DNA from: Bacteroidales bacterium
GTDB lineage: Bacteria > Bacteroidota > Bacteroidia > Bacteroidales > JAIOZK01
Direction of reading: 5' to 3'
DNA length: 64,000 nucleotides
Assembly (NCBI GenBank): GCA_021740625.1
Contig: JAIOZK010000007.1
Span: 1 to 64,000 of the forward strand
Position 1 is the stretch's first letter; each line of letters opens with the position of its first letter. A program made the position numbers and the translations under genes. The notes under the pieces were generated by a model. It was given only the letters and a program-made list of their open reading frames with translations. It searched no databases and was not told where the DNA came from. Shown one piece after another: positions 15,075 to 41,023 of the stretch.

Positions 15075-15155
15075 AGCGGAATCCATGTCAGGCCCAGCGA
15101 AGTCGAAGTCAGACCCAGCGAAGTCGAGGTCAGGCCGAGTCGAAGTCGAGGCCCA
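15075..15155. repeat. Short tandem repeat, about 20-base unit
   Basis: Imperfect copies of a unit close to AGCGAAGTCGAAGTCAGACC follow each other three to four times. The array has higher GC than its surroundings and no open frame of note. It sits downstream of a convergent gene end; no function can be inferred. Confidence 0.7.
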
Positions 15156-15162
15156 ATTGTAC

Positions 15163-15699: not shown

Positions 15700-15706
15700 T
15701 TTTTTG

Positions 15707-15778
15707 TAGCCCCGAGTGGAATCGAACCACTATCTAGAGTTTAGGAAACTCCTATTCTATCCATTGAACTACGGGGCC
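15707..15778 (-). tRNA. tRNA-Arg, anticodon CCU
   Basis: On the minus strand this 72-base stretch folds as a full cloverleaf: acceptor GGCCCCG with CGGGGCT, anticodon stem GGAGT with ACTCT around the loop TTCCTAA (anticodon CCT), and T-arm GTGGTTCGATTCCAC. CCA is not encoded. It reads AGG codons. Confidence 0.95.
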
Positions 15779-16167
15779 TGAAATTTTTGGCAAAATTAAC
15801 AATTTTCTACTTCATGTGAAATAAAGCTTCTACAAAACCTGGCCTTTCCGGCAAACCAATTCATCACTTCAATTATATTGCCCTTTCAGGGCGTGGGAAC
15901 AGCTACTACAAACCAGCCAAAGGGCGTTGCCCTTCGCTATGATATGCTGGCCCTTCGGGCCGCTATAAACAATATCCAATATTGGACATTTGACATTAAT
16001 TGATGACACTAACAAAAACCCCTATACCCGAAAACCATATACCTATGTATCCCTGTACCAAACCAACAAGCGAGGGCATTGAGCATGCGGTCCATCTCAA
16101 TAATCCAACTGACCGTCCCAGCGAAACCCCAGCAATACCAATTCACAAATAAACCACTCTACCAACC
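15779..16167. repeat. Intergenic region with palindromic repeats
   Basis: No gene is seen. Three small palindromes lie close together at about 15889-15968: GCCCTTTCAGGGC, AAGGGCGTTGCCCTT and GGCCCTTCGGGCC. Copies of the same kinds occur near 30 and near 51975-52020, so they belong to a family of intergenic repeats. The rest is AT-rich non-coding sequence downstream of metG. Confidence 0.55.
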
Positions 16168-18222: not shown

Positions 18223-18270
18223 TCTGGGATATTTCTTGTAATTTCGGCAAAGTTAACCAAATGTAATCAA

Positions 18271-19176
18271 ATGCAAACTCCCGGATATTTGAAAAAAGGT
18301 GATCAGGTGATGATTGTGGCGCCTGCCCGGAAAATTGCACCAGAGGAAGTTGAGCCTGCGAGAAAAATTTTGGAAAGCTGGGGACTGAAAGTTGAATATG
18401 CCCGGCATCTTTTCGGAATATACAATCAGTTTTCCGGAACAGATTCGGAAAGGCTGGAAGATTTTCAGCAAGCGCTGGACGATCCCAGAGTAAAAGCGAT
18501 CATTTGCGCACGAGGAGGCTATGGCTCCGTCAGGATCATTGACAGGCTGGATTTCAGCCGATTTATTGAAAAACCCAAATGGATTGTGGGCTACAGCGAC
18601 ATTACCGTTTTTCATTCCCATATCAATCAAAACTTAGGTATAGAAACCCTGCATGCCGAAATGCCGCTGAATTTCGGAAAGGAAAAAACAAAAGCGGAAA
18701 CTTTTGATTCGCTCAAAAAGACCCTCTGCGGCCGGATCCCGGAATACAACATTCCAACATTCGATTCAAACAGATTGGGCAAGGCACAGGGAATACTCAC
18801 CGGCGGTAATCTTTCCATGCTTTACAGCCTGATGGGAAGTCCTTCAGATATCAATACGGAAAACAAAATTCTTTTCATTGAAGACCTGGACGAATATCTC
18901 TACCATGTCGACCGCATGATGATGAACCTGAAGAGGAATGGCAAGCTCGACAGACTGGCCGGCCTGATCGTTGGCGGACTAAGTGATATGAACGACAACA
19001 GCATTGCCTTTGGCAAAACAGCAAAAGAGATCGTATGGGAACATGTGCAGGAATATAATTATCCTGTCTGCTTTGATTTTCCTGCCGGCCATATCCCGGA
19101 TAACCGGGCTTTGATCATGGGGCGGGAGATTTTGTTGACAGTGGGGAAGGAGGAGATAAGGGTATTTTACAAGTGA
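18271..19176 (+). CDS. LD-carboxypeptidase (peptidase family S66)
   Basis: 301 residues from the ATG at 18271; the open frame extends further upstream but that part overlaps metG on the other strand and has no family similarity. Family signatures: N-terminal PGYLKKGDQVMIVAPAR, CARGGYGSVRI holding the nucleophile region (serine of the GYGS motif), WIVGYSDITVFH, GGNLSMLYSLMGSP and the FPAGHIPDNRALIMG region with the catalytic histidine. S66 enzymes remove the terminal D-alanine from muropeptides for recycling, or inactivate microcin-like compounds (MccF). Confidence 0.9.
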   Translation: MQTPGYLKKGDQVMIVAPARKIAPEEVEPARKILESWGLKVEYARHLFGIYNQFSGTDSERLEDFQQALDDPRVKAIICARGGYGSVRIIDRLDFSRFIEKPKWIVGYSDITVFHSHINQNLGIETLHAEMPLNFGKEKTKAETFDSLKKTLCGRIPEYNIPTFDSNRLGKAQGILTGGNLSMLYSLMGSPSDINTENKILFIEDLDEYLYHVDRMMMNLKRNGKLDRLAGLIVGGLSDMNDNSIAFGKTAKEIVWEHVQEYNYPVCFDFPAGHIPDNRALIMGREILLTVGKEEIRVFYK

Positions 19177-19538
19177 CAAGTATCCAATAATCAACCTGAA
19201 TTTCGTCAGGCAAGTTATCCAATTGATTGGGGCGCTTGTTGGATATTGGTTATTTGAATTTTTTGAATTTTGAATTTCGAATGCCCAATATCGAATTTCA
19301 AAGTTGGGGTAGCCGCATCAGCCAAAGCCTCGCAGGTAAGATACTAATTTTTTAATGTCAATTAAAAATTAATAAATTGCCCTCAGGCTTCGACTCCACA
19401 GAGGTTTAAGGCATTTAGCATGATGAAAAACAACACTTTATTGCCTCATTCCTATCATAACTTTTCTTCGTGTCTTTGCGTTTTTGCGGTTATTTTCTGC
19501 GACTTTTTTGCCCTGAAAGGTATTAACCCATAAAAAAC
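19177..19538. other. Intergenic region, no gene seen
   Basis: 362 AT-rich bases between the S66 peptidase and the YraN-family gene. They contain short repeated GAATTTTGAATTTCGAAT-like segments at about 19256-19300 and no open frame with coding character on either strand. A promoter for the next gene is presumably near the end, but no clean consensus is visible. Confidence 0.5.
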
Positions 19539-19901
19539 ATGGCCGAACACAATGACTTGGGCAATGCCGGAGAAGAGCTTGCCTGCAAACACCTGCGCAA
19601 AAAGGGTTACGAGATCCTGAAAACCAACTGGCACTTCGGGAAAGACGAAGTGGATATCATCGCACAAAAAGATGATATGATCGTATTCATAGAAGTCAAA
19701 ACCCGTTCATCCCGCTTTTTCGGGGAACCCTATGTTTTCGTAACAAAGAAAAAGCAAAGGTTCCTGCAAAGAGCCGCCGATGCCTATTTCGACCGATACG
19801 ATTGCAAACTGGAAGGCCGCTTCGATGTTATCTCCATCGTAATCAACGGCAATGAAAGCAGCGTGGAACATATTGAGCGAGCGTTTTACCCAGTGATTTG
19901 A
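19539..19901 (+). CDS. YraN family protein (UPF0102), putative endonuclease-like
   Basis: 120 residues, standard for the UPF0102/YraN family. The restriction-endonuclease-like fold is shown by GNAGEELACKHLRKKGYEIL, then DEVDIIAQKDDMIVFIEVKTRS with the D...ExK metal-binding pattern, and YFDRYDC...RFDVISI. Its cellular role is not established; the family resembles Holliday junction resolvases. Confidence 0.9.
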   Translation: MAEHNDLGNAGEELACKHLRKKGYEILKTNWHFGKDEVDIIAQKDDMIVFIEVKTRSSRFFGEPYVFVTKKKQRFLQRAADAYFDRYDCKLEGRFDVISIVINGNESSVEHIERAFYPVI

Positions 19902-20008
19902 GGGGGGTTCGGTGATATTTTGATAGAAATTCGGTAGAAATTTATTGGTCAAAACTCAAAACTCAAAACTCAAAATTATTGGGTATATCTTTGTAAAAAC
20001 ATTTCTGA

Positions 20009-20764
20009 ATGATGAACAAAGAAAAAAATACCGGAAAAGACAAGGGAGACAATCTCACACGCCTGAACAAATACATTGCCAATGCCGGTGTTTGTTCCCG
20101 GCGCGAAGCAGACAAGCTGATTGAGGCCGGTGCCATCAAAATCAACGGAAAGGTGGTTACCGAACTGGGCACCAAGGTAAAAACGGGCGATAAGGTACAA
20201 TACGGGGAACAAATCCTGTCTTCTGAAAAGCCTGTATACCTTCTGCTGAACAAACCCAAGGATTTTATCACCACCACGGATGATCCGCAGGAAAGAAAGA
20301 CCGTGATGGATCTTGTGAAAAGAGCCTGTAAGGAAAGGATATATCCGGTGGGCCGTCTAGACAAAAATACCACCGGCTTGCTTCTTTTCACCAATGATGG
20401 CGAGCTGGCCAAGAAGCTCATTCATCCCAGTCACCAGATTAAAAAAGTTTACCATGTGATCCTGGAAAAGCCGCTTACGAAAAATGATATGCTGAAAATT
20501 GCCGGCGGTCTGGAGCTGGAAGATGGCAAAGCCGATGTGGACAAGATCGCTTGGGTAGAACCCGAAAAAGACAAAAGGGAAGTGGGCATAGAACTACATT
20601 CTGGCAAAAACCGCATCGTCCGGCGCATCTTCGAAAACCTAAACTACAAAGTATACAAGCTTGACCGTGTGATGTTCGCCGGGCTGACCAAAAAAGACCT
20701 CCCCCGGGGAAAGTGGAGGTTTCTTAGCCCAAAAGAGGTGAACCTGCTGAAAAGGATCTCTTAA
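20009..20764 (+). CDS. rluB: RluB-type 23S rRNA pseudouridine synthase
   Basis: 251 residues. An S4 RNA-binding domain is at residues about 16-75 (RLNKYIANAGVCSRREADKLIEAG), then the RsuA/RluB catalytic domain with GRLDKNTTGLLLFTNDG, whose aspartate is the catalytic residue. The protein probably converts a uridine in 23S rRNA helix 89; RsuA and RluE/F are close relatives, so the exact target is inferred. A TATCTTTG -7 box lies at about 19984-19991, 17 bases before the start codon. Confidence 0.88.
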   Translation: MMNKEKNTGKDKGDNLTRLNKYIANAGVCSRREADKLIEAGAIKINGKVVTELGTKVKTGDKVQYGEQILSSEKPVYLLLNKPKDFITTTDDPQERKTVMDLVKRACKERIYPVGRLDKNTTGLLLFTNDGELAKKLIHPSHQIKKVYHVILEKPLTKNDMLKIAGGLELEDGKADVDKIAWVEPEKDKREVGIELHSGKNRIVRRIFENLNYKVYKLDRVMFAGLTKKDLPRGKWRFLSPKEVNLLKRIS

Positions 20765-20831
20765 AAATCTATTTGAATACTTGATATGTGACTTTTCTTT
20801 TTCGTATCTTGGCAGTATAAATATTAATGGA

Positions 20832-21660
20832 ATAGAAATAGTACCCGCAGTAATTTTTCCAATCAACTCAATTTAAATTATGTCAATATTTTCGACCAGG
20901 ATTCGCTGGTTTATCAGTCAGATTGTTTATCAACGATCAAATTAGATATAGATGATAATATTATCTGGCACTGGGATTTTTACAGCAATTCTTTTTATAC
21001 GACGCAAATAAACAAAACCTGTATTAATGATAATAATGAGGTCTTTCATTTTGGCAGAACATCAAACGATCTTATCATTAATCATGATACACTAGTATTC
21101 CCTTATGAACCGGAAACAAACTGTTTAAGTTTTTTACTAAAGTATTCTCCTGGAGGGAATCTAATTGATACAGCCTTTTTTCATGTTCTTTCGGGTATTG
21201 ATTATATCCAGGTTGATTTCGAAAATAATTACTATTTCACCGGATGGGTATTTGATACTTTAATATTGGGCAATGACACCTTGTTTGAATCTGGTGACAC
21301 CAATATTTTTGTTCTTGTCAAAACGAATCAGGAATTTGAGCTTCTCTGGTATAATTTTTTAATATAGATACATTTACTTCTCCTTCTTATGAAACAAAGG
21401 ATTACTTCCTATCCAAAAATTTAAGAATTGATCCAATAACAATTGATATTGGTCCAGATACATTGTTTTGTGAAGAAATCACCCTGATTGGTCCACAAGG
21501 CTATACTTATTACCTCTGGAATGATTCCCTGAGGGAGCAACCAAAGTTTATTGTCAATGAAACAGGTATGTATACCCTTTCGGTTGCAAACGAAGATGGT
21601 TGCTGGTCAGAAAGCGATTCGATCTTCATCTGGGTGCACAGCAAAAGGGCATTTATTTAA
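20832..21660 (+). pseudogene. Remnant of an SBBP-like secreted protein
   Basis: An open frame without a start codon runs to the stop at 21365-21367 and encodes beta-propeller-like repeats (ENNYYFTGWVFDTLILGNDT is typical of SBBP repeats). A second frame then continues (NIDTFTSPSYETKDYF...) to 21660 with an Ig-like module (GPDTLFCEEITLIGPQGYTYYLW). The frames meet at six T (21355-21360); one more T would join them. The 5' end is missing, with stop codons just upstream, and there is no T9SS tail. It is either a decayed gene or one damaged further by assembly error. Confidence 0.7.
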
Positions 21661-21799
21661 TACTGATCAAAACAGAGAGGGGCAACTTCTGCAGGAAATT
21701 GTTGATTCAATAGAATGTTCAGTAATCATGACCTGTAAAATTATAATTTATTAATCCATTTTAAGCATTACCTTTAGAAATATTTAAATACTGATATAC

Positions 21800-23272
21800 A
21801 TGCAAGTTAACGTAAAAAGAAAAAATGTTAAATTCACACCGGATCCTGGTAGGGTCATTGCCCGCTTTCTTTATACCACCGATGAAAGGGCCTTAAATAC
21901 CATACGTTCTGTGTTGAACTTGTCTGAGGATAAAGTATCGCAGGTGTTAAGTCCCTTGCTGAGGGATTTTTCATTGCGACACAGAAACATATCGTTAGTT
22001 TTCAAAAAGCATTTCAATAAAGTTTCTCATTTGCTAAAGTTGCTGGATGTTGATCCTGACTCACTCAGCACAACGCAAAAGGCGCTTATCGGGGCCTACT
22101 TTACCATGGAGTATTCCATTGAATCAGCCGCATTTTTTAATCCATCTATTGTGGAACATCCCGATCAGTCGGAAACCGGCCCGGGCGAAAAAAGGGTCAT
22201 TCTCAGTTTCAGGGCAACGGGTGAAGGTCATATTTCATCCATTGTTTTCCGCACCGGTGTGCTGGATAAAAATAATAAGCTACCCCTTGAGCCAGTAGGT
22301 AATATGCTGGAAGAAGCTTATCATATTCGCAGGCATGTTTACGATAAAACTTCCTTCAAAAGCAAACTTGATGAAATGAAAGAGGTTCATACGCTCATTC
22401 CTTCTGATTTGATCCTCGACAGGCTAAACGAAAACTTTACATATCGTGAATTAATGGATTGCATCAATGAAGCCCGGAATACAATTCCTCCTGATCCCAA
22501 TAAAGAAGTTCTATTTAATCAAATTCGATGGCTTGCATCCTCAAATTACGAACTTGATTTTTCGCTTGACACAAATATTTCGGAAAGGGTCATATTCCCG
22601 GTTTCGAAAAACGAAAAGAACGGCATTGAAGACGCCCGTTTCGTGAGGTTCACAGAAGATCATGGTGAAGGCATCTATTATGCCACTTACACCGCATACG
22701 ACGGCAGCACCATTTTACCAAAGATGCTTAAAACCAGGGATTTTTATCACTTTAAGGTAATGCCGCTTCATGGTGAAATTGCCCAAAACAAGGGCATGGC
22801 GCTTTTCCCCCGGAAAGTGAATGGAAAATACGCCATGCTGTGCCGTTTGGACGGCTTTAACAATTACATTGCTTATTCTGATGAAATCAATATCTGGCGG
22901 CAGGCCAAATTACTTCAAAAACCCAAGTATCCCTGGGAATTTATTCAAATTGGCAATGGAGGTTCCCCCATTGAAACATCGGAAGGATGGCTGGTGATTA
23001 CACACGGTGTTGGTCCCATGCGCGAATACACTTTGGGAGCTTCCCTGTTCGATCTTGAAAACCCGGAGAAAGAAATCGGGAGGTTAAGAACTCCGCTGCT
23101 GGCGCCCAATGCCGAAGAAAGGGAAGGATATGTGCCCAATGTGGTTTATTCCTGCGGATCGATGATCCACAATGAGGAACTGATCATACCTTACGCCATG
23201 TCGGATTATGCAGCAACTTATGCAACTGTTAATCTGAGGGAACTTCTGAATGAGTTGAAAAACTCAAAATGA
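21800..23272 (+). CDS. Glycoside hydrolase family 130 protein
   Basis: 490 residues. An N-terminal helical region of about 160 residues precedes a five-bladed beta-propeller core of the GH130 type, with EKNGIEDARFVRF (putative catalytic aspartate), GSTILPKMLKTRDF, and the GNGGSPIETSEGWLVITHGVGPMREYTLGASLFDLENP stretch that holds phosphate- or sugar-binding residues in the family. GH130 enzymes are phosphorylases or hydrolases of beta-mannosides; which applies here cannot be read. It lies at the left edge of the stress/sensory block but its promoter lacks the box A/box B element. The GT4 fusion at 35964-38210 may be a functional partner. Confidence 0.85.
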   Translation: MQVNVKRKNVKFTPDPGRVIARFLYTTDERALNTIRSVLNLSEDKVSQVLSPLLRDFSLRHRNISLVFKKHFNKVSHLLKLLDVDPDSLSTTQKALIGAYFTMEYSIESAAFFNPSIVEHPDQSETGPGEKRVILSFRATGEGHISSIVFRTGVLDKNNKLPLEPVGNMLEEAYHIRRHVYDKTSFKSKLDEMKEVHTLIPSDLILDRLNENFTYRELMDCINEARNTIPPDPNKEVLFNQIRWLASSNYELDFSLDTNISERVIFPVSKNEKNGIEDARFVRFTEDHGEGIYYATYTAYDGSTILPKMLKTRDFYHFKVMPLHGEIAQNKGMALFPRKVNGKYAMLCRLDGFNNYIAYSDEINIWRQAKLLQKPKYPWEFIQIGNGGSPIETSEGWLVITHGVGPMREYTLGASLFDLENPEKEIGRLRTPLLAPNAEEREGYVPNVVYSCGSMIHNEELIIPYAMSDYAATYATVNLRELLNELKNSK

Positions 23273-23489
23273 AAAAACAGGTGCTTTTCCCAAGTCAGAT
23301 CCCATTCAAACCCAACTCCTCTTTAGCGTTGATGATCCTGAGAAACACACACTGATATATTTGCCGACAATGAACTGGATCCCTGAAAACGGATTTATGG
23401 CGGGTTTGGCATTTCACAAGGGTTTCATCATTCCAAAACCGGTATTGATTTGCATTTCAGAAACCGCGACATTTCTTCTAAATGTGTGA
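23273..23489 (+). pseudogene. Fragment resembling the C-terminal part of an M1 metallopeptidase
   Basis: A short open frame overlapping the end of the GH130 gene reads LLFSVDDPEKHTLIYLPTMN and then WIPENGFMAGLAFHKGFIIP, which resembles the C-terminal part of large Bacteroidota M1-type peptidases (YMPxxNWTRENGxMAGVAxHNG). It has no start codon, ends at 23489 inside box A of the next promoter, and has none of the catalytic domain. It is most likely a remnant left by an old deletion. Confidence 0.45.
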
Positions 23490-23550
23490 ATGATGTAAGT
23501 CTTTTATGAAATAGTGTAATACATTTTATAACCTCAAACCAGACCTTTAC
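23484..23550 (+). promoter_or_regulatory. Box A/box B promoter element, copy 1
   Basis: Box A GTGTGAATGATGTAA at 23484-23498, box B GTGTAAT at 23514-23520 (30 bases on), and the -7 element GACCTTTAC with TTT at 23546 (32 bases after box B). The Thivi_2564-like gene starts 34 bases after the TTT. Confidence 0.85.
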
Positions 23551-23579
23551 TAAGTTTAGGAACAATTAAATTCATTATT

Positions 23580-23765
23580 ATGTCCGTTTTAACGATCATT
23601 CTTGTCATTCTTGGTGTTGGGGTTATACTCTGGCTGATTAACAGCTATATCCCAATGCAACGAACAATCAAAGGAATTCTGAATGTAGTTGTTATTATTA
23701 TTCTGGTGATTTGGCTGCTGAAGGTATTTGGTGTTCTGGATAGTATGCAAAACCTAAGAACTTAG
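23580..23765 (+). CDS. Thivi_2564-like small membrane protein
   Basis: 61 residues that are almost entirely two transmembrane helices (residues about 4-23 and 30-52) joined by YIPMQRTIKGILN. This matches the small Thivi_2564-type membrane proteins (about 60 residues, LINxYIPM...KxILNxVVVI). Such proteins are often found beside other stress-induced small membrane proteins. It is the first gene after promoter copy 1, with the CHRD lipoprotein following 71 bases later. Confidence 0.85.
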   Translation: MSVLTIILVILGVGVILWLINSYIPMQRTIKGILNVVVIIILVIWLLKVFGVLDSMQNLRT

Positions 23766-23836
23766 TGATACTTATTTTGAAATAGTTCATAAAAAACTGA
23801 CCCGCCAGACGCGGGAAATATTTAATACAAATAAAA

Positions 23837-24661
23837 ATGATGAATGCAAGAAAATTGTATGCCATGCTCCTGATAGTTGTTTCGGCAATTTTACTGATGC
23901 CCTTCAGCGGTTGCAAAAAAGACAAAGATGAAGAAGTACCTGCAAGAGAAACAACCTATAAGCTGAAAGCGCAGGATGTGCTTGGTGTTACAGGCACTGC
24001 AACTTTCACTGAAACAAGCAATACCTCGTCCACTATCACTTTAAAGCTTTACGGTGCACCTTCCGGAACACATCCGGCTGCATTGTGCATGAATACGGTA
24101 GTGGAAGGAGGTAATACTGTTGTTGAACTTAATCCTGTGGATGCTTCAGGAAGCAGTTCCACCAGCGTAAATGCATTAACCTACAATCAGTTGATAGCCT
24201 ACGACGGTTTCATAAAAGTCGTGGAAAGCAGCAGCGAACCTGATGTAATTCTTGCCCAGGGCGATATTGGCGGTAATGTAATTACCGACATCAATGTTTC
24301 TTATCCACTTGATACAGTGGGCGCTTTTGGTGTTTCAGGAAGCGCGTTGTTTGAAAAAAGGAAAAACGGGAATACACTTGTTACTCTTAACATTTCAGGA
24401 ACCATTGCCGGGGAGGAATATCCCGCCAGTATTAATCTGGGTTCGGTTGAATCCATAGGTGGCGGGCCGGTAACCAAAACACTGAGCAGTGTGAACGGCA
24501 CTACCGGTAAAAGCTTTACCAACATCCGGAAACTGGATAGCGGGGTGAATATTACTTACGAAAACTGGTTGGTTTACGATGGATATATAAACATATATCA
24601 AATCGCAGCAGAATTTGACAATATAATCTGTCATGGCAATATAGGTTCGAACGTGGACTAA
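23837..24661 (+). CDS. CHRD domain lipoprotein
   Basis: 274 residues. The signal peptide is of lipoprotein type (lipobox MPFSGC, cysteine near residue 26). Two tandem repeats of about 115 residues follow (residues ~40-155 and ~160-274), each with the CHRD-like pattern VLGVTGTATFTE..ST.TL.L.G...G..HPA.......GG..V..LN, including a repeated LxxYDGxIxV segment. CHRD domains occur in chordin and in bacterial surface proteins and bind ligands of unknown nature. It is probably co-transcribed with the preceding small membrane protein and the hybrid kinase 69 bases downstream. Confidence 0.75.
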   Translation: MMNARKLYAMLLIVVSAILLMPFSGCKKDKDEEVPARETTYKLKAQDVLGVTGTATFTETSNTSSTITLKLYGAPSGTHPAALCMNTVVEGGNTVVELNPVDASGSSSTSVNALTYNQLIAYDGFIKVVESSSEPDVILAQGDIGGNVITDINVSYPLDTVGAFGVSGSALFEKRKNGNTLVTLNISGTIAGEEYPASINLGSVESIGGGPVTKTLSSVNGTTGKSFTNIRKLDSGVNITYENWLVYDGYINIYQIAAEFDNIICHGNIGSNVD

Positions 24662-24730
24662 AGCTGTTCTAATATCATTGAAAGGGACGGTACAGTCTTC
24701 GAAACACACAATAAATTTCATTTACAAGGT

Positions 24731-26464
24731 ATGAATAAACAAAAAAAACCGGTAGGCAAACTTGTCAAGTTTTGGAAATCTTCAAAATTTTTGCTAAAAA
24801 ATAAAGTGAAGGCTTCAGAAATGTCTTTCCCGGAATCCGTTAATCAAAAACTCATTCAGGAGCTTGAATTGCACCAGGAAGAACTGGAGTTGCAAAATGA
24901 AGAACTTAAACTGGCCAAGGAAAAAGCAGAGCTTGCAGAAAAAAAATATACTGAATTATACGATTTTGCCCCTACAGGATACCTAAGCCTTACAAAGAAA
25001 GGTGAAATTATAGAAGTGAATATTAGTACAGAACGTTTGTTGGGAAAGGAACGTTCGCGTTTGATTAAAAGTAGTTTTGGGTTTTTTGTTTCCATGGATA
25101 CAAGAGCCGTTTACAATCATTTTCTGCAAAAAATATTTGAAAGCAAACGAAAAGAAACCTGCGAACTTAAACTGCAAAAAGGCGACGGTTCCCTGAAATA
25201 CGTACTCGCTAAAGGCATAATCAGTAAAGCTGACGAAAAATGTCTGCTGACGCTGGTTGACATAACAAAGAGAAAACACGCTGAGAACGAATTGATAAAA
25301 GCCAAAGAAAAAGCGGAAAAAGCAGAAAGGATGAAATCGGCTTTTCTGGCCAATATGAGCCATGAAATCAGAACGCCCATGAATGGCATTCTTGGCTATA
25401 CTGATCTGCTTAAAACCTTGAAATTAAACCGTGAAAAGCAGCAAAACTATATTGGCATAATTGAGCAGAGCGGCACCCGAATGCTCAATATCATAAACGA
25501 TATTATCAGCATTTCCAAAATAGAATCCCAGCAAACAGAAGTAAACCTTAGCAATACGAACATAAACCATCAAATTGAATATATTTTCTGTTTTTTCAAG
25601 CAGGAAGCTGAACAAAAAAAATTGCATCTTTCCTTCAACAATGAACTTCCTGAAAAAGAAGCGGAAATAAGGACGGATCGTGAAAAAATATATGCAGTGC
25701 TCACAAACCTGGTTAAAAATGCGATTAAGTTTACGCAAACCGGCACCATTAAATTGGGTTATGTTAAAAAAGAAGGATTTTTTGAATTCTATGTGAAAGA
25801 CAGTGGTTCTGGCATTCTGGAAGAACAGAAAGAATTCATTTTTGAACGCTTCAGGCAGGGCAACCAATCACATAAGCGCAATTACGAAGGCGCAGGACTG
25901 GGTTTATCTATTTCGAAAGCTTATGTTGAAATGCTGGGAGGAAAAATCTGGGTGGAAAATAATGCAGGTAAAAATGGAAATGACTCAGGTGCCACCTTCT
26001 TTTTCACCATTCCGGCATACCTGCCTGTGGAAAGGAAAAATGATATTGCGGATACCGCCCCCGAAAAAGCAACGGAATTTAATTTCAGAAATCTTAGTGT
26101 TTTAATTGTTGAAGATGATAAATATTCAGAAACACTCTTTATTACATTGGTTGAAGAATTTACCAGAAAAGTTTTTACAGCAACCACCGGAGTTGATGCA
26201 GTTGAAGTTTGCCGGAAAAATTCTGACATCGATCTGGTGCTGATGGATATAAATATGCCGGGAATGGATGGATATGAAGCTACCCGGAAAATCCGAAAAT
26301 TTAACGAGAGGGTGGTCATAATCGCACAAACTGCCCATGCATTGACTGGCGACAGAGAGAGGTCAATAGCAGCAGGATGTAATGACTATATCACCAAACC
26401 AATAAAAAGGCTTGATTTAATTAAATTGTTAAACAACTATTCTTCAGAATTTACCAAATCTTAA
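24731..26464 (+). CDS. PAS-containing hybrid histidine kinase/response regulator (kinase 1)
   Basis: 577 residues, soluble. A coiled coil at residues ~40-72 ([23 protein letters not shown]) leads to one PAS domain (~73-182). The phospho-acceptor is His211 in [19 protein letters not shown]. The ATPase domain has the N box [16 protein letters not shown] and [14 protein letters not shown]-terminal receiver domain has EDD near the start and the phosphorylated aspartate in [11 protein letters not shown]. No DNA-binding domain is present, so phosphate must pass to another protein or act by protein contact. It is a close paralogue of the kinase at 32747-34690, and its N-terminal half resembles the solo PAS protein at 31733. 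Confidence 0.95.
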
Positions 26465-26467
26465 AAC

Positions 26468-26534
26468 ATATGAATGATGTAAAACAATCCCAAAATTGTG
26501 TAATACCATTCAGTGCAGGATGGCTGACCTTTGT
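26468..26534 (+). promoter_or_regulatory. Box A/box B promoter element, copy 2
   Basis: Box A is ATATGAATGATGTAA at 26468-26482 (first G of the consensus changed), box B GTGTAAT at 26498-26504, and the -7 element GACCTTTG with TTT at 26530. Spacings are 30 and 32 bases. It begins four bases after the stop codon of kinase 1 and precedes the YtxH-like gene by 38 bases. Confidence 0.85.
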
Positions 26535-26567
26535 AAGTAAATTAATCATTAATAAACAATCAATATT

Positions 26568-26743
26568 ATGAGTTCAGGAAAAATTTTATTGGGCATATTG
26601 GCCGGTGCATTGGCAGATATCTTATTTGCCCCAGCAAGCGGGTCGAAAACCCGTAAGAAACTTTTAAAACGGGCAATATGTTTAAAGAAACACTGAAAAC
26701 AAAATTCTCCAGAGAAGTTGACAGGTCATTTAAGACTCATTAA
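26568..26743 (+). pseudogene. YtxH-like small protein, frameshifted
   Basis: The first frame (26568-26696) encodes MSSGKILLGILAGALADILF followed by APASGSKTRKKLLK, which is the membrane helix and GSKTRKK motif of YtxH-type stress proteins, then runs into unrelated residues and a stop. A second frame reads GNMFKETLKTKFSREVDRSF, the normal kind of YtxH tail, to a stop at 26741. One added base in the AAAA run near 26667 would join them into a protein of about 58 residues. YtxH proteins are small membrane-anchored proteins induced by general stress. Confidence 0.7.
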
Positions 26744-26785
26744 GCACATTCAATTTACTGACCCTGATTGAATAAAAATAAACTC

Positions 26786-28570
26786 ATGACAAAGATGCAT
26801 TCATTTCATATTCCGGTTATGGGAATTGGTTTTACAATTGATACACCATTAAAGGTTTCTCAGTTTGGAATTGACTCTGTAATTTCAATAGTCGATGATA
26901 TTTTGCTTGAAAAATTGAGAAAAATATATTGCAAGAAGTATGAATTACCCTTTACCGAAATTACCAATAATATTGACGATAGCAGAGCAAAAAGGATTAC
27001 CGCTTATTTGAATTTAATCAATACTATTGCGGCCAGTAAATTTGAGCAGCTAAAAAGCCTTCTCACACATAAAGAAAGGGATAGAAAAGAATACTTTGAT
27101 ATGTTACCTGATCGTTCCGGCATTTTGCAAGAATTCAAAAGCTTCATGGAAAAATCACCTGCTACAGAAAAGCTTTATAAATGGCTGGACCACAATCTGT
27201 CAATGGGAAGCATTGATGTAAATATCATGACCAAAATTGACAAGGAAAACTATTTTAATGGGCAGAAACTACCTGTTGAATATAATGATGCACATGCCGC
27301 CCTTAGAGGGTATGCAAATAGTGACCTGAATTCTTCCGTGGTGTTTTCCGCAGGTATGAATCCAAAATTATACAGCTACATTAAAGAGTTTGAGGATTTT
27401 TATCCAAATGAAAAAGGAATAATAAAAAAGAAAATCACATTAAAGGTAAGCGACTATAGATCAGCTCTTATTCAAGGTAAATTTCTAGCCAAAAAAGGGC
27501 TTTGGGTTTCAGAATACAGAATTGAATCAGGACTCAATTGTGGCGGGCATGCATTTCCAACTGACGGTCAGCTCTTAGGGTCAATTTTGGCTGAGTTTAA
27601 GGATAAGCGAAATGAATTGGTTGAAACATTGCATGAGATTTATGTTGGAGCACTTTCCGGGAAAGATCGCCCAATACCTGCAGCAACACTACCTGTAAGA
27701 ATAAGCGCCCAGGGAGGTGTGGGCACACCCGAAGAACATCAATTCCTGATCGATCATTATCAGATCGATTCCGTAGGATGGGGATCCCCTTTTCTATTGG
27801 TGCCAGAAACCACCAACGTGGACCATTTAACTCTGAGTAAATTAATTAAGGCCAAAGAGGATGATCTATATTTAAGCAATATTTCTCCCCTTGGGATTGC
27901 ATTCAATAATCTCAAGGATAATGCAAAAGATATCGAAAAGCTGAAATTGGCAGAACAAGGCAAGCCGGGCAGCCCGTGTGTAAAAAAATTTCTTGCTTTA
28001 CAGAAAGGGGATGATGGACAAACAATTTGTACTGCCTCACGTAAATACCAAAATGCAAAAATAAAAGAACTAAAAAAAGAAGGAGTGCCTCCACAAGAAT
28101 ACCAAAGACGATTTAAGGAAATTGTTGAAAAAGCCTGCTTATGTACCGGCCTTGGTGCATCAGCCATGTTGGTAAATGTTATGGACACCAGGGTTGAAGG
28201 GAGTGCTGTTTCAATTTGCCCCGGACCGAACATGGCATATTTCACAAAAATAATGAGCTTAAAACAAATGATCGGACACATATACGGAAGAGCAAATGTG
28301 ATTGAAGTAAGCGGCCGACCTAATATGTTCGTTAAGGAACTGAACATTTATATTAACTTTCTAAAAGACAAAATCGAAAAATCGCAACTTTCCTTCAACC
28401 AAAAGCAAAAGAAAGACTTATTGGATCTCGCTGAGAACCTAAACAACGGAATCAGCTATCTAATCAACTTATTCAGCACTCTAACTGACAAATTCAATGA
28501 TACAAAATCCGATGTTCTAAAAGATTTAGAGGATGATAAAAAAAATTTAGAAATATTAGGCAATGTGTGA
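26786..28570 (+). CDS. Conserved protein of unknown function, possibly a TIM-barrel enzyme
   Basis: About 594 residues from ATG 26786; a TTG six codons upstream (26768) is a possible alternative start. I do not recognise a named family. Residues such as HSFHIPVMGIGFTIDTPLKV near the N-terminus, SGLNCGGHAFPTDGQLLG (around 250), RISAQGGVGTPEEH and DSVGWGSPFLLVPE (around 320-345) resemble the phosphate- and flavin-binding loops of FMN TIM-barrel proteins. A cysteine-containing second half (GKPGSPCVKKF, TICTASRKYQ, EKACLCTGLGASAM, SICPGPNMAYF) suggests metal or redox chemistry. It has no signal peptide or membrane helix. It follows the YtxH-like gene under promoter copy 2, so it is probably part of the same response. 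Confidence 0.8.
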   Translation: MTKMHSFHIPVMGIGFTIDTPLKVSQFGIDSVISIVDDILLEKLRKIYCKKYELPFTEITNNIDDSRAKRITAYLNLINTIAASKFEQLKSLLTHKERDRKEYFDMLPDRSGILQEFKSFMEKSPATEKLYKWLDHNLSMGSIDVNIMTKIDKENYFNGQKLPVEYNDAHAALRGYANSDLNSSVVFSAGMNPKLYSYIKEFEDFYPNEKGIIKKKITLKVSDYRSALIQGKFLAKKGLWVSEYRIESGLNCGGHAFPTDGQLLGSILAEFKDKRNELVETLHEIYVGALSGKDRPIPAATLPVRISAQGGVGTPEEHQFLIDHYQIDSVGWGSPFLLVPETTNVDHLTLSKLIKAKEDDLYLSNISPLGIAFNNLKDNAKDIEKLKLAEQGKPGSPCVKKFLALQKGDDGQTICTASRKYQNAKIKELKKEGVPPQEYQRRFKEIVEKACLCTGLGASAMLVNVMDTRVEGSAVSICPGPNMAYFTKIMSLKQMIGHIYGRANVIEVSGRPNMFVKELNIYINFLKDKIEKSQLSFNQKQKKDLLDLAENLNNGISYLINLFSTLTDKFNDTKSDVLKDLEDDKKNLEILGNV

Positions 28571-28631
28571 ATAATGTAAACCTAAATCAGAATTGTGTAA
28601 AATTTTTTAAATAAAAATTAAGACTTTTTAC
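28565..28631 (+). promoter_or_regulatory. Box A/box B promoter element, copy 3
   Basis: Box A GTGTGAATAATGTAA at 28565-28579 contains the TGA stop codon of the preceding gene. Box B GTGTAAA is at 28595-28601, and the -7 region ACTTTTTAC has TTTAC beginning at 28627. Spacings are 30 and 32 bases. It precedes the RpoD-like microprotein by 32 bases. Confidence 0.8.
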
Positions 28632-28658
28632 AGATGTGCAAACATTAGCAAGCGTTTT

Positions 28659-28763
28659 ATGAAGAAATTTAAGATCAGCAAACAAAATACCAATCGTCAT
28701 AATTTTTCCCTGGAAATTTATCTGCAGGAAATAGGAAGAACAGGTCTTTATTATATAAATTAA
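28659..28763 (+). CDS. 34-residue protein resembling the N-terminus of RpoD
   Basis: The reading frame starts at ATG 28659, 32 bases after the -7 element of promoter copy 3. Its sequence MKKFKISKQNTNRHNFSLEI and then YLQEIGRTGL closely resembles the first 30 residues of Bacteroidota RpoD (xxxLKIxKxxTNRExxSLxKYLQEIGxxxL), which lead into sigma region 1.2. The frame then stops; neither of the other frames continues with RpoD-like sequence. It could be a truncated duplicate of rpoD or a small protein that touches RNA polymerase. It lies 50 bases before the CheB/CheR fusion gene. Confidence 0.6.
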   Translation: MKKFKISKQNTNRHNFSLEIYLQEIGRTGLYYIN

Positions 28764-28813
28764 TGTATATTTTTGATATTTAATGACTCGTATTCTGTTT
28801 AAAAATCAAACAA

Positions 28814-31729
28814 TTGAAAACAAAACCTGCTGCTTCGTCAAAAGATAAGAAAACCGGAATTGAAACGCGGAATTTTCCAATCCTTGGCATTGGCGCTTCG
28901 GCCGGTGGACTGGAAGCACTGGAACAACTTCTGGAAAATGTACCCGCTGACAGCGGAATGGCTTACGTGGTTATACAACATTTGGATCCCACGCAAAAAG
29001 GGATGCTCCCCGAACTGCTTCAGCGAATCTCCAAAATGAAAGTTTTTCTGGTGAAAGACCGCATGCCGATAAAACCCAACAACATTTATGTTATCCCGCC
29101 CAACAAAAGCATGTCAATTTTAAAAGGGGTACTCTATTTGTTTGAACCCGCTGAAGCAAGGGGTTTGCGCCTTCCCATCGATTTTTTTCTCCGTTCACTT
29201 GCCGACGATCAGAAAGAGTATGCCATCGGAGTTATCCTTTCAGGCATGGGCTCCGATGGCAGCAGCGGACTTAAGGCCATTAAAGAAAAAGAAGGAATAG
29301 CTATTGTGCAGGAACCCGAAACAGCAAAATTTGACAGCATGCCCCGGAACGCAATCGATTCGGGATTGATTGATATTGTAGCCCCACCCAATAATATTTA
29401 TAATAAACTAATTGATTTTTTTAAACATTTACCTGAAGTTAAATCAGATATAAGTGGGGAAGGTAAAAACAAAAGTGCACTGGAGAAAATTATCATCTTG
29501 TTGCGGACACATACCGGGAATGATTTTTCGCTCTATAAAAAAAATACCATTTACCGCCGCATCGAAAGACGAATGGGTGTGCATAAAATCGACGGAATTA
29601 ATTCATACATACACTTTTTACAGGAGAATCCTGAAGAGGTACATATTCTTTTCAAAGAATTGATGATTGGAGTCACTAACTTTTTTCGCGATGCCCCGGT
29701 ATGGGAAGAATTAAAAAAGAAGATTCTTACGAAAAAGTTGGGCAAAGATCAAAGCGGCTCAACATTGAGGGCGTGGGTACCTGGCAGTTCTACGGGTGAA
29801 GAAGCTTATTCGCTGGCCATCGTATTTAAAGAAGTCCTGGAAAAATTAAACCCACAAGTAGGATTTTCATTACAGATTTTTGCTACTGATCTTGACAATG
29901 ATGCAATTGAAGCTGCCAGAAAAGGCATCTTTCCTAAAAATATCGAAGCGGATGTTTCAGCAAAACGATTAAGCCGTTTTTTTACTAAAACCGACGATGA
30001 CAGCTATCAAATAAATACCGAAATCAGGGAAACGATTGTGTTTGCGCAACACAACATTATCATGCATCCGCCTTTTACAAATATCGATATCATTTCGTGT
30101 CGTAACCTGCTTATTTATTTGGACCCGGAATTGCAGAAAAAGCTTCTAGGGTTGTTTTATTACAGCCTTAATCCTGAAGGAATTTTGTTACTGGGCAGCT
30201 CCGAAACACTTGGGGTGCAGGGCCAGCTTTTTACACCCCTAAATTCCAGTCTGAAGATATTTAAACGGGCCGATTCGAACCCCAACCCAGAGCAGCTTGA
30301 TTTTCCTTCTTCTTTTTCACGCTCAAAGCTCGCAGTTAGCCAAAATAAAGCCCCCGACAAACCCATTAAGAATATTCAGGCACTTGTCGATCAATTGTTG
30401 CTGAATAAATTCTCACCTGCCGGCGTTTTGGTCAATGAAAATGGCGATATTTTATACATCAGCGGACGAACCGGAAAGTACCTGGAACCTGCCGTGGGGA
30501 AAGCAAACATGAATATTTTTGCCATGTTGAGGCCGGGTTTTCAAAACGATTTTGCCATAGCCTTCCGAAAAGTACTTATGAAAAAGGAAAGCGTGGTTCT
30601 AAACCATGTTAAAATAGGTACAAACGGGGGCTCACTTACCTTAAATGTAGATCTCCTGTGGATTGACAAACCTGAACCATTGGTTGGAAAGGTGCTGATA
30701 ATTTTTTCCGATGTTCCGAAAAATGCTGCCATTGAAATAAAAGGAAAAAAAGGGGGGAAAAATAAAACCAGCGTCAGGGAAGCAGAACTTGAGGAGGAAT
30801 TGCAGCACACACGCGAGCAGGTACAAAACATTACGGAAGAGATGCAGACTTCGCAGGAAGAACTGAAATCAGCCAACGAAGAATTGCAGTCAACCAACGA
30901 AGAGCTGCAATCAACCAATGAAGAATTGACTACCTCGAAAGAAGAAATGCAAAGCCTGAACGAGGAACTTCAAACCGTAAATGCCGAACTGCAGTCGAAG
31001 GTGGATGAATACTCGCGGATAAATAACGACATGAAAAACCTGTTGAACAGTACTGATATAGCAACGCTATTTCTCGACAAGGAATTGAATATCCGCCGTT
31101 ACACCAACCAGGCCACCAAAATATTTAAACTCATAAAAAGCGACATCGGAAGACCATTTACCGACCAGGCTTCACAACTTATTTACCCCGAACTGGTTGA
31201 TGATGCACGCGAAGTGTTGCGTACCCTTATTTTTATCGAAAAACAAATCCCGACCAGGGAAGGGTATTGGTTTCGTATTCGCATTATGCCATACCGGACC
31301 TTCGACGACCGTATTGACGGCCTGGTTATTACCTTTATCGATATTACTGAGATGAAACAGGTGGGAGAAAAATTGCAGAAAGCAAAGCAGGAGAACCGGC
31401 TGCTTTTAGAATCCTTATCCAGCGTAATTATTAAATTATCACCCGACTGGAAAATTCTGGAATTTAATCCCCTGGCTGAAACCTTTTTCGGCAGAAAACG
31501 CAAAGAAGTAACAGGAGAGAATTTTATGGCCTTATTTATACCCGGGCCATTACAGAAAAGTACAGAACAAAAAATGAACAAAATGTTGCAAAAGTCTGAA
31601 AATAAAAATGTTAAAATGAAGGTAATTGCAGCCGGTGAAAAAGAACTTGAAACGGTGTGGTCAGTAAATGTATTGTTTGATAAGCCTGAAATACCTTCAG
31701 AAATAATTATAACAACACAAAACAGATAA
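28814..31729 (+). CDS. CheB-CheR-PAS fusion protein
   Basis: 971 residues with a TTG start. Residues ~20-205 are a CheB methylesterase domain with the catalytic triad visible: Ser29 (GIGASAGG), His56 (QHLDPT) and Asp148 (GMGSDG). Residues ~225-490 are a CheR methyltransferase domain (SSTGEEAYSLAI, ATDLD, ISCRNLLIYL). A long coiled coil follows (~650-730, repeats of EELQSTNEEL), then two PAS-like domains to the C-terminus. Such proteins usually continue into a histidine kinase; here none is present, and the next gene starts three bases later and encodes a PAS protein. It probably works as a sensory methylation module with the neighbouring kinases. Confidence 0.93.
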   Translation: MKTKPAASSKDKKTGIETRNFPILGIGASAGGLEALEQLLENVPADSGMAYVVIQHLDPTQKGMLPELLQRISKMKVFLVKDRMPIKPNNIYVIPPNKSMSILKGVLYLFEPAEARGLRLPIDFFLRSLADDQKEYAIGVILSGMGSDGSSGLKAIKEKEGIAIVQEPETAKFDSMPRNAIDSGLIDIVAPPNNIYNKLIDFFKHLPEVKSDISGEGKNKSALEKIIILLRTHTGNDFSLYKKNTIYRRIERRMGVHKIDGINSYIHFLQENPEEVHILFKELMIGVTNFFRDAPVWEELKKKILTKKLGKDQSGSTLRAWVPGSSTGEEAYSLAIVFKEVLEKLNPQVGFSLQIFATDLDNDAIEAARKGIFPKNIEADVSAKRLSRFFTKTDDDSYQINTEIRETIVFAQHNIIMHPPFTNIDIISCRNLLIYLDPELQKKLLGLFYYSLNPEGILLLGSSETLGVQGQLFTPLNSSLKIFKRADSNPNPEQLDFPSSFSRSKLAVSQNKAPDKPIKNIQALVDQLLLNKFSPAGVLVNENGDILYISGRTGKYLEPAVGKANMNIFAMLRPGFQNDFAIAFRKVLMKKESVVLNHVKIGTNGGSLTLNVDLLWIDKPEPLVGKVLIIFSDVPKNAAIEIKGKKGGKNKTSVREAELEEELQHTREQVQNITEEMQTSQEELKSANEELQSTNEELQSTNEELTTSKEEMQSLNEELQTVNAELQSKVDEYSRINNDMKNLLNSTDIATLFLDKELNIRRYTNQATKIFKLIKSDIGRPFTDQASQLIYPELVDDAREVLRTLIFIEKQIPTREGYWFRIRIMPYRTFDDRIDGLVITFIDITEMKQVGEKLQKAKQENRLLLESLSSVIIKLSPDWKILEFNPLAETFFGRKRKEVTGENFMALFIPGPLQKSTEQKMNKMLQKSENKNVKMKVIAAGEKELETVWSVNVLFDKPEIPSEIIITTQNR

Positions 31730-31732
31730 ATT

Positions 31733-32314
31733 ATGACTGACGAAGAAATGGATTTTACCGATGCAAAAATGCTGCGGCAGAAAGCTGAAAAAAAACTCAA
31801 AGAAAAGAAAAACAAAGAGGCCGGCACCTTGAAGGAAACCGATGTGAATAAACTGCTTCACGAATTGCAGGTGCACCAGATTGAACTGGAATTGCAGAAT
31901 GAAGAATTGCGCCAGGCGTACGAAACAGCGGAAACAGCCTTAAAAAAATATACCATGCTGTTTGATTTATCACCCATGGGATATTTCTTACTCGAAGCTG
32001 AAGGTACAATTCGTGACCTGAATTTCACGGGCGCCGATATGTTGGATGAAAGGCGCTTTAGTTTGATAAACACCAATTTCAAACTTTTTGTCTCAGAAGA
32101 TTCAAAGCCTGTTTTTAATACTTTTTTCAGAAAAGTGTATAACACCAATGCAAAAGAATCTTGCGAAGTTTTACTGGGTTATGATAAAAAACCTTTATGC
32201 ACTGTGTATATGGAAGGGGTTGTTACTGAGGATGAGCAAAATTGCCTTTTGTCGGTGGTCGATATTTCGAAGTTTAAAAGTCGAACCATCTCCGAAAGTT
32301 CAACTGATGAATAG
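31733..32314 (+). CDS. Solo PAS domain protein
   Basis: 193 residues. A charged helix and coiled coil ([20 protein letters not shown], residues ~40-65) precede one PAS domain (~70-180). The arrangement and many residues match the first 180 residues of kinase 1 at 24731 ([17 protein letters not shown] ... [15 protein letters not shown]). There is no transmitter or output domain. It starts three bases after the CheB-CheR-PAS gene, so the two proteins are probably made together and may form a split sensor. Confidence 0.88.
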   Translation: MTDEEMDFTDAKMLRQKAEKKLKEKKNKEAGTLKETDVNKLLHELQVHQIELELQNEELRQAYETAETALKKYTMLFDLSPMGYFLLEAEGTIRDLNFTGADMLDERRFSLINTNFKLFVSEDSKPVFNTFFRKVYNTNAKESCEVLLGYDKKPLCTVYMEGVVTEDEQNCLLSVVDISKFKSRTISESSTDE

Positions 32315-32571
32315 TTTTAAAATTAAAAATAAAAGGTATTAACCCCAGGGTAGAACCCTGGACCCATTATTCCGATGCAGAGCATCGGGGAAACTTGCCT
32401 GACGGCAGTCAGGTTAAACCATAGCTTCTCGTCCGCACGCTACCGCTGAAGCTTTAGCGTAAGCGTCCGAAGCGAACGCGAAGGCGGATTAAACCGGAGT
32501 GTCTGTTTTTACGAATTCCGGATTAGAATCATTTCAAAAATATCAAAAACCCTGTTTGCATCTGATAATAT
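32315..32571. repeat. Intergenic palindromic repeats
   Basis: Several short inverted repeats lie in a row between 32345 and 32495: CCAGGGT-AGA-ACCCTGG, CCGATGC-AGA-GCATCGG, CCTGACGGC-AGTCAGG, and a GC-rich segment with GCTGAAGCTTTAGC and repeated CGAAGCGAACGCGAAGGCGG-type motifs. They differ in composition from the AT-rich surroundings and resemble the intergenic hairpin repeats elsewhere in the window. Confidence 0.6.
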
Positions 32572-32638
32572 GTGTGAATGATGTAAGTAATTACTGGAAT
32601 TATGTAATGCTTTCGGTCTTCAAATGAATCATCTTTAC
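32572..32638 (+). promoter_or_regulatory. Box A/box B promoter element, copy 4
   Basis: Box A GTGTGAATGATGTAA at 32572-32586, box B ATGTAAT at 32602-32608 (first G changed to A), and the -7 region CATCTTTAC with TTTAC at 32634. Spacings are 30 and 32 bases. The leader to the hybrid kinase start is longer than in most copies, 113 bases. Confidence 0.85.
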
Positions 32639-32746
32639 ATCATATTCAATTAAACAGTTTTATTCCGGACAAAAAGTTTGGCATCAACATAAATATCTTA
32701 ATGTTGTGCCCCAAAGGGCGGGAAATCTGGCTTTGATGAAAAGAGT

Positions 32747-34690
32747 ATGAAAAAAGAATCAATCATAGCAGATGAATTATTGGTTTCCGAGCTTCGCTAT
32801 CGCCGCTTGTTCGAATCGGCTAAAGACGGAATACTTATCCTTGATGCTGAAACCGGTAAGATTGTCGACGTCAATCCTTTCTTAACGAATTTGCTTGGCT
32901 ACACGAAACAAAATCTCATAGAGAAATCAATCTGGGAAATTGGCGTATTTAAGGACATTTATATAAACAAAAAGAAATTTCTGGAATTACAAGAAAAAGA
33001 ATACGTCCGCTATGATGATTTACCACTTGAAACTTCGGATGGACAAAAAATTCATGTTGAGTTTGTGAGTAATGTCTATTTGGCTAATGGTATTAAGGTA
33101 ATCCAGTGCAATATCCGCGATATTACCGAGAACTGGGAAATAAAAAAGCAAATTGTTGAAAGCGAAGAAAAATTCAGGATAATTACCGAGAACTCCGCTG
33201 ATGCGATTTTTATTACAGATAAAGATGGCAAATACATATATGTCAATAAACAGGCAGTTGAATTGCTGGGGTATTCAAAAGAAGAACTTCTAACATTTAC
33301 AATTGTCGATATATCACCCAAAAATAGAATTGAAGAGTATTTTCAAATCTTTCAGCAAATGCTAACCACGGGCAGTTCCTATTCCGAGATAGAACTTGTG
33401 AGGAAGGACGGGAGTTACGCAGATACCGACCTGAATACCGTTCTGCTTCCCAATGGATGGGTTTATGGAAGTTGCCGTGATATTTCTGTGCGAAAACATC
33501 TGGAAAAAGAACTTTTACAAGCCAAGGAAAGGGCAGAAGAAAGCGACAGACTTAAATCAGCATTTCTGGCCAATATGAGCCACGAAATCAGAACACCCAT
33601 GAATGGGATACTGGGTTTCACCAGCTTGCTCAAAAATCATAAACTGAAAGGCAAAGAGCAACAGGAGTACATCAGGATCATCGAAAAAAGTGGTACCCGC
33701 ATGCTCAATATTATCAATGATATCATCAGCATTTCCAAAATAGAATCCCGTCAGATAGGAATTGTAATTTCCGATACAAATATCAACATTCAGGTAGAAT
33801 ATATTTATCATTTTTTTAAACTGGAGGCTGAACAAAAAAAACTGCATTTTTCTTTCAGGAACGGACTGTCGAATGAAGCAGCAGAAGTAAGGACCGATCG
33901 TGAAAAAACCTATTCAATACTGACCAACCTGGTTAAGAATGCATTGAAATTTACACCCTCTGGTTTCGTTGAATTCGGTTATATTAAAAAGGACGGCTTT
34001 TTGGAGTTCTACGTAAGGGACAGTGGAACAGGTGTTTCCGCAAAACAAAAAGAATATATTTTTGATCGGTTCAGACAAGGCAGTGAATCCCTCACCCGGA
34101 ACTACGAGGGGGCCGGCCTGGGCTTGCCAATTTCAAAATCCTATGTTGAAGATCTGGGTGGAAAAATCTGGGTGGAGAATAATACCGACTTGCCTTCCGG
34201 TAATGATAACCACTTCAATCAGGGTTCAACTTTCTATTTTACTCTTCCTTTCATACCTGCACAAAATCCTAAAATGATCTCTTCCGAACTCCCAGCAGAT
34301 GTTGATGCAAAAATTCATAAAAGAAAACTAAAAATTTTAATTGCTGAAGACGATCAAGCTTCGGAATTGCTTTTCAGGATTATGCTGGAAAATGATGCCA
34401 GAGAATTTTTGCAGGCTTCAAACGGAATAGAAGCAATAAAATCCTGCAAAAACAACCCAGACATCGATTTGGTGCTGATGGATATCAACTTGCCGAAAAT
34501 GGATGGCTATGAAGCCACCCGGAAAATTCGTGAATTTAATAAGGATGTGGTGATTATCGCCCAAACTGCTTATGCTTTGTCCGACGACCGCAAAAAGTCA
34601 ATAGATTCCGGTTGCAACGATTATATTTCAAAACCCATAAAACGGGCAAGTTTGATAAAAATCATCGAAAAGAATCTGAAACCGGAATAA
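32747..34690 (+). CDS. Two-PAS hybrid histidine kinase/response regulator (kinase 2)
   Basis: 647 residues, soluble. Two PAS domains lie at residues ~17-130 and ~142-252. The phospho-acceptor is His279 in [19 protein letters not shown]. The ATPase domain has NLVKNALKFT, DSGTGV and GAGLGLPISKSY. The receiver domain near the C-terminus starts KILIAEDDQAS and carries its aspartate in [11 protein letters not shown]. From the H box onward it is very similar to kinase 1, so the two arose by duplication with different sensor parts. It has no DNA-binding domain. Transcription starts from promoter copy 4. Confidence 0.95.
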   Translation: MKKESIIADELLVSELRYRRLFESAKDGILILDAETGKIVDVNPFLTNLLGYTKQNLIEKSIWEIGVFKDIYINKKKFLELQEKEYVRYDDLPLETSDGQKIHVEFVSNVYLANGIKVIQCNIRDITENWEIKKQIVESEEKFRIITENSADAIFITDKDGKYIYVNKQAVELLGYSKEELLTFTIVDISPKNRIEEYFQIFQQMLTTGSSYSEIELVRKDGSYADTDLNTVLLPNGWVYGSCRDISVRKHLEKELLQAKERAEESDRLKSAFLANMSHEIRTPMNGILGFTSLLKNHKLKGKEQQEYIRIIEKSGTRMLNIINDIISISKIESRQIGIVISDTNINIQVEYIYHFFKLEAEQKKLHFSFRNGLSNEAAEVRTDREKTYSILTNLVKNALKFTPSGFVEFGYIKKDGFLEFYVRDSGTGVSAKQKEYIFDRFRQGSESLTRNYEGAGLGLPISKSYVEDLGGKIWVENNTDLPSGNDNHFNQGSTFYFTLPFIPAQNPKMISSELPADVDAKIHKRKLKILIAEDDQASELLFRIMLENDAREFLQASNGIEAIKSCKNNPDIDLVLMDINLPKMDGYEATRKIREFNKDVVIIAQTAYALSDDRKKSIDSGCNDYISKPIKRASLIKIIEKNLKPE

Positions 34691-40401: not shown

Positions 40402-40468
40402 GTAAATTTCGGAATTTGGGTTTTGAAATGCTTTACACAATTCTGAATAATATTTACATTATTCACAC
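40402..40468 (-). promoter_or_regulatory. Box A/box B promoter element, copy 7
   Basis: On the minus strand, box A GTGTGAATAATGTAA at 40468-40454 overlaps the stop codon of the araC-family gene. Box B GTGTAAA is at 40438-40432 and the -7 region GAAATTTAC has TTTAC from 40406. Spacings are 30 and 32 bases. The B12-radical SAM gene begins 90 bases further. Confidence 0.85.
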
Positions 40469-41023
40469 ATCTTCGAGTGTTTCGCGATTTTTGTTTTTGA
40501 GATTTTTGAAATGGGTAGGCGTAAGGCCGGTGTATTTTTTAAACTGATTGGAGAGATGGGCCACACTACTGTAATGCATTCTGTAAGCAATTTCTGAAAG
40601 ATTTAGCTCATCGTAAACAATCAGTTCTTTTACCCTTTCGATTTTATGTTTGAGATAAAACTTTTCGATGGTGATGCCTTTTACTTCTGAAAAAAGACTT
40701 GCAAGGTAATTGTAATTATAGTTAAGCTTTTCGCTGAGGTAGTTTGAAAGGTTTACTTTTATTTGATCTTCGGAATAATGCACCAATTCGATGACTGCAA
40801 ATTTAATTTTTTCAACAAGTACACTCTTCTTATTGTCCATCAAAAGCAATCCGGATTTTTTCAAATTTGCTTTTAGCTTTTCCAACTGCACCGGTTCGAC
40901 ATCACCAATAATGTCAGCTTCACCTATTTTCACATAAACATACCTGAGGCCTACTTTTTCAAGTTCGGATTTCACTACCATCTGGCAGCGGATGCAGACC
41001 ATATTTTGAATATATAACTTCAA
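40463..41023 (-). CDS. AraC-family regulator with N-terminal HMA-like domain
   Basis: 186 residues. The first ~65 residues resemble a heavy-metal-associated ferredoxin fold with a CxxC pair at residues 10 and 13 (NMVCIRCQMVV), a form common in Bacteroidota AraC proteins. The rest is a two-helix-turn-helix AraC domain: DQIKVNLSNYLSEKLNYNYNYLASLFSEVKGITIEKFYLKHKIERVKELIVYDELNLSEIAYRMHYSSVAHLSNQFKKYTGLTPTHF. It is the only recognisable DNA-binding regulator in the 21.8-45 kb block and lies amid the promoter copies, so it is the first candidate to bind boxes A and B. Its own upstream region lacks a full copy. Confidence 0.9.
   Translation of the reverse strand: MKLYIQNMVCIRCQMVVKSELEKVGLRYVYVKIGEADIIGDVEPVQLEKLKANLKKSGLLLMDNKKSVLVEKIKFAVIELVHYSEDQIKVNLSNYLSEKLNYNYNYLASLFSEVKGITIEKFYLKHKIERVKELIVYDELNLSEIAYRMHYSSVAHLSNQFKKYTGLTPTHFKNLKNKNRETLEDV

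Follow-up and report, generated by a model that had tools for sequence, protein, structure and literature searches.

RpoD-type sigma factors and the 34-codon frame

Sigma-70 factors bind the core mainly through region 2, which the RpoD/SigA-family sigmas of Bacteroidota possess together with regions 3 and 4. The primary sigma factor of these bacteria is about 286 amino acids long and lacks region 1.1 (compare sigma-ABfr, as cited in PMC6847099), and a -7 element of the form TAnnTTTG is known from Bacteroidota (PMC6847099). The window analysed here, a stretch of 64,000 nucleotides from a Bacteroidales bacterium, contains a frame, hereafter the stub, which resembles RpoD/SigA-family proteins in its start methionine, its N-terminal arm (K-F/L-K-I-x-K-Q) and the first half of region 1.2 (SLEIYLQEIGR), but which ends after 34 codons and has none of the later regions. 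The stub and what follows it are arranged thus:

28659..28763, plus strand: 34-codon ATG frame whose codons 1-30 share homology with an RpoD paralog at its N-terminus
28749..28813, plus strand: non-homologous tail (YYIN, stop) and spacer, in which sigma homology is gone, with no remnant in any frame
28814..31729, plus strand: CheB-CheR-PAS fusion protein with a TTG start, the gene after the stub, with orthologs at 72-76% in G143, G222 and Maribellus

The product of the frame (ATG at 28659, stop at 28761-28763) is MKKFKISKQNTNRHNFSLEIYLQEIGRTGLYYIN. It aligns without gaps, and from the same start methionine, to residues 1-30 of the full-length RpoD paralogs of its own genome, which bears out the sequence-only reading that the frame copies the first ~30 residues of Bacteroidota RpoD and reaches into region 1.2. 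Identity is 53% to the paralog G000:C13 (E 2.1e-4), 50% to C45 and 41% to a third. There are four full-length RpoD paralogs in this genome (C13, C45, C42 and C24), and the stub is the sole partial one. The C24 paralog (L171:4744-5607, minus strand; MRKLVILNKLTDRSLPSLEKYLQ) is divergent and lies in another context.

In an intact 285-aa paralog from Maribellus, Pfam places region 1.2 at residues 17-48. Sigma homology is lost in the stub at about codon 30, so it retains the N-terminal arm but no more of region 1.2 than its first half. Within that stretch it has the character of an RpoD-type (group 1/2) sigma-70 factor, but none of the later regions 2, 3 and 4 is present: the product is 34 amino acids long, has no Pfam match and is followed by no downstream remnant. 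A tblastn search with sigma residues 29 to the end against positions 28741-29000 returned a best E of 0.37, and since nothing sigma-like occurs after codon 30, up to or into CheB-CheR, the last nine tenths of the sigma gene are gone.

The regulatory element ahead of the frame

The stub lies behind one of several copies of a two-part element, here called copy 3:

23484, 26468, 28565, 32572, 34691 and 41254, plus strand, and 38797 and 40454, minus strand: element GTGTGAATgATGTAA-N13-TTGTGTAA with a -7 box at fixed spacing
28565..28600, plus strand: element copy 3, operator GTGTGAATAATGTAA-N13-TTGTGTAA, a motif common to 25 of 295 genomes of the order
28622..28629, plus strand: weak -7-like box GACTTTTT (consensus TAHCTTTG), at a fixed position relative to the element
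40463..41023, minus strand: HMA-AraC regulator, candidate binder of the element

The halves of copy 3 are GTGTGAATAATGTAA at 28565-28579 and TTGTGTAA at 28593-28600. Exact matches to the first half of the element, GTGTGAATRATGTAA, number seven in this genome, all of them inside the island of the stub. Across the order the two-part pattern lies upstream of many genes in its 25 genomes, while a reversed-pattern control gave 0. The sites precede genes of a general-stress type, namely those for small membrane proteins, YtxH-like and CsbD-like proteins, glycine-zipper lipoproteins, a ferritin-like protein, a cold-shock protein and GH130-like enzymes; these names were read from sequence, save where Pfam was run. 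The element also stands upstream of HMA-AraC regulator homologs in G167 and Maribellus, and the HMA-AraC protein encoded at 40463-41023, the most evident candidate for the regulator, would bind it. Directly upstream of copy 3 lies a 600-aa frame (26768-28570) without any Pfam match.

The element consensus includes TAHCTTTG, a box that keeps a constant distance and fits the Bacteroidota -7 element. At copy 3 a box stands at this position, yet it is among the weakest, the 57th best of 63. The earlier placement of the start 32 bases after the -7 element of copy 3 holds for the element, which is real, but the distance is about 29 nt and the box is weak. Counted from the beginning of the element, the ATG is reached after 94 nt; of the 54 element copies followed by an ORF, 34 show a corresponding distance of 85-115 nt. 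This spacing is typical, so the frame stands at the place expected of a first gene, as had been proposed by comparison with other regulated first genes. An ATG at a normal distance would also suit a real microprotein, namely a peptide produced under stress that imitates region 1.2, attaches to RNA polymerase or to promoter DNA and acts as a competitor of a sigma factor, and the regulon does have other small first genes.

Full-length and decayed relatives

Among 84,980 species genomes scanned, the element followed by N70-100 and an RpoD-like start was found at one locus, in Maribellus maritimus (L170, which is scaffold 50, record 14000-33000). Two RpoD-like copies are present there:

L170 9892-10749, minus strand (NZ_JAIKLE010000050.1): intact RpoD paralog S285, 285 aa, with its element at 10830, minus strand
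L170:8078-8596, minus strand: frameshifted, element-driven RpoD-like copy with a 172-codon frame, beside the Maribellus HMA-AraC gene

S285 holds regions 1.2, 2, 3 and 4 and lies directly behind an element of the HMA-AraC type, in an island of the same kind as that of the window, with an HMA-AraC regulator, CheB-CheR and a PAS kinase. The two islands are homologous (CheB-CheR 76%, PAS 64%, kinase 60%, HMA-AraC 50%), and S285 further resembles the stub in rare N-terminal residues and in its distance from the element (95 nt, and 94 nt at the stub). The second copy, about 2 kb from S285 in the same island, is likewise element-driven, truncated and RpoD-like, and has QN at positions 9-10 and SLE.YLQ in common with the stub, but it is cut in region 3 by a frameshift whereas the stub is cut after 30 codons. 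Past the break, a different frame takes up the sigma reading (CEPIVDELLEVSK) until a stop ends it. Its region 2.3-2.4 motif has drifted from YAVWWIRQSI to FASKWIDQSI, and its branch in the tree is very long; given the frameshift and the drifted motif, decay of element-driven sigma copies is seen in this island. Another genome of the Maribellus family carries both RpoD copies too, nearly identical in DNA, and the main block of its island is 99.95% identical.

The closest match to the stub, among the matches listed, is a 289-aa sigma factor of the Maribellus family (G906), with 21 of 30 residues identical (70%, E 1.6e-8), against 37-53% for the paralogs of its own genome; in the search of the Maribellus family the Maribellus sigma ranks second to it. 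A maximum-likelihood tree, built on 30 columns only, pairs the stub with the G906 sigma (bootstrap 92) and places the Maribellus copies next. The rare residues N15 and I20 are common to the stub, S285 and G906, while RpoD nearly always has T or S at position 15 and 65 of 69 sigmas have K at position 20. The stub and the G906 sigma additionally have K2, F4, F16 and T28 in common. Judged by residues over 30 columns, the case that the stub groups with the S285/G906 subfamily and not with ordinary RpoD paralogs appears good but not final. The pattern KI.K..TNR....SL..YLQEIG, common to all RpoD paralogs, could underlie a resemblance by chance or a piece copied out of an ordinary RpoD gene of the same genome. 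However, the match is to a specific subfamily, at a higher identity than to the own paralogs, and the grouping with the G906 sigma speaks against a copy of ordinary RpoD. Chance is moreover untenable because the element-driven relatives sit in a homologous island, and we regard this pair of explanations as highly unlikely.

Intact S285 and the G906 sigma, both full-length where the stub retains 30 codons, share 70% identity over their whole length (201 of 289 columns), so it is the full-length form that is being maintained. Over its 30 codons only, the stub differs from the G906 sigma at 7 of 17 synonymous and 11 of 73 nonsynonymous sites, and its nonsynonymous distance to G906 is 0.15 per site, compared with 0.16 for S285. 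Five amino-acid changes are private to the stub, two to G906 and six to S285. Several of the states found only in S285 are ordinary RpoD residues; the stub-private changes include Q3K and D/E14H, at near-invariant positions. As the 30 codons are not obviously decayed, either the truncation is young or the peptide is somewhat constrained, and the codon changes, so far as so short a stretch can be read, fit a young truncation and also weak constraint. This lack of clear decay would favour the microprotein described above, although the two changes at near-invariant positions count against it.

Short form, leader or relic

Searches for a conserved short form covered 295 genomes of the order (with the 34-aa query), 24 element-bearing genomes of the order and 140 genomes of the Maribellus family; the same short frame was absent among the matches listed for the first, and no comparable short frame was among those listed for the other two. 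Some of the sampled genomes are incomplete, and the match lists comprise the best-scoring matches. For the 34-aa query, each match examined was either a full-length sigma frame or one interrupted by a gap or a contig end. Lower-ranked frames of 102-264 codons in the Maribellus family (e.g., in G818 and G823) may likewise reflect contig ends or gaps, and at 52% identity they are no more stub-like than ordinary sigmas. A 109-aa frame in G170, considered as a short form, proved to be an assembly gap. The only other genome of the genus is without the 34-codon frame, a DNA search with the whole leader across the class yielded just short AT-rich matches and ordinary rpoD N-termini, and a search of the literature on truncated or element-controlled RpoD paralogs in Bacteroidota found nothing relevant. 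A search for a phage origin of the stub gave nothing significant.

The expectation for a conserved microprotein, that the same short frame recurs in related loci, was therefore not borne out among the matches listed: the matches examined were full-length or cut by gaps, and the element-driven relatives full-length or frameshifted. The stub also ends in the middle of region 1.2 without regions 2-4, and without the core-binding region 2 its peptide, which may still be translated, would be unable to serve as a sigma factor and is improbable as a competitor or loader. The earlier suggestion of a small protein acting as competitor or loader of a sigma factor is thus not supported, and we consider a microprotein very unlikely. 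That the first 34 codons have been kept as a stress-induced peptide which mimics the start of region 1.2 and modulates RNA polymerase or sigma exchange is likewise very unlikely.

The stub could instead serve as a translated leader (uORF) that affects the translation of CheB-CheR or the stability of its message, whatever the sequence of the peptide. No other frame precedes it in the presumed transcript, its stop lies 50 nt before the TTG of CheB-CheR, and Maribellus also has a frame, a different one for a small membrane protein, between the element and CheB-CheR. On the other hand, the stub and CheB-CheR do not overlap, and an RNA element or attenuator found no backing at the stub, with no Rfam match, a fold no better than shuffles (z +1.05) and no terminator-like site. 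A leader of this kind is a very improbable account. The fusion gene at 28814 itself seems to be TTG-started, and a TTG is found at the equivalent place in its G143, G222 and Maribellus orthologs.

We conclude that the stub is most probably a 5' remnant, now the leader of the CheB-CheR transcript, of a once full-length sigma gene of RpoD type (group-2-like) from the HMA-AraC/element island. Since intact copies exist in related bacteria, a broken gene is more likely than a new mini-protein, and the early suggestion of a truncated duplicate gains support from the full-length and frameshifted element-driven relatives. Also in favour of a relic, the CheB-CheR orthologs in G143, G221 and G222 are preceded by element-like sites with no RpoD-like frame between. 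An ancestral full-length sigma gene would have belonged to the HMA-AraC/element stress island and would have lost everything past about codon 30, presumably by deletion. Its promoter, leader and first 30 codons would now be the 5' part of the CheB-CheR transcript, with the element promoter probably still driving transcription through the stub into CheB-CheR, and any stub peptide made would be functionless. No intact sigma ortholog is known at exactly the place of the stub, before CheB-CheR, so the deletion is not directly seen. This counts against a relic, as does the absence of the frame from the other genome of the genus. Moreover, the 30 codons show no obvious decay, the G906 sigma is not element-driven, and the promoter leader has no special kinship with that of S285: ranked by closeness to it among the element leaders, S285 has rank index 23 of 84.

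The broken stub matters little by itself. Some Bacteroidales, however, have an RpoD-type sigma paralog among the targets of the HMA-AraC/GTGTGAATgATGTAA stress regulon, with copies that seem to be gained and lost, and the regulon could therefore feed forward through RNA polymerase specificity. S285 of Maribellus, wired into this stress regulon, is the better lead, and possibly a more interesting one than the stub.
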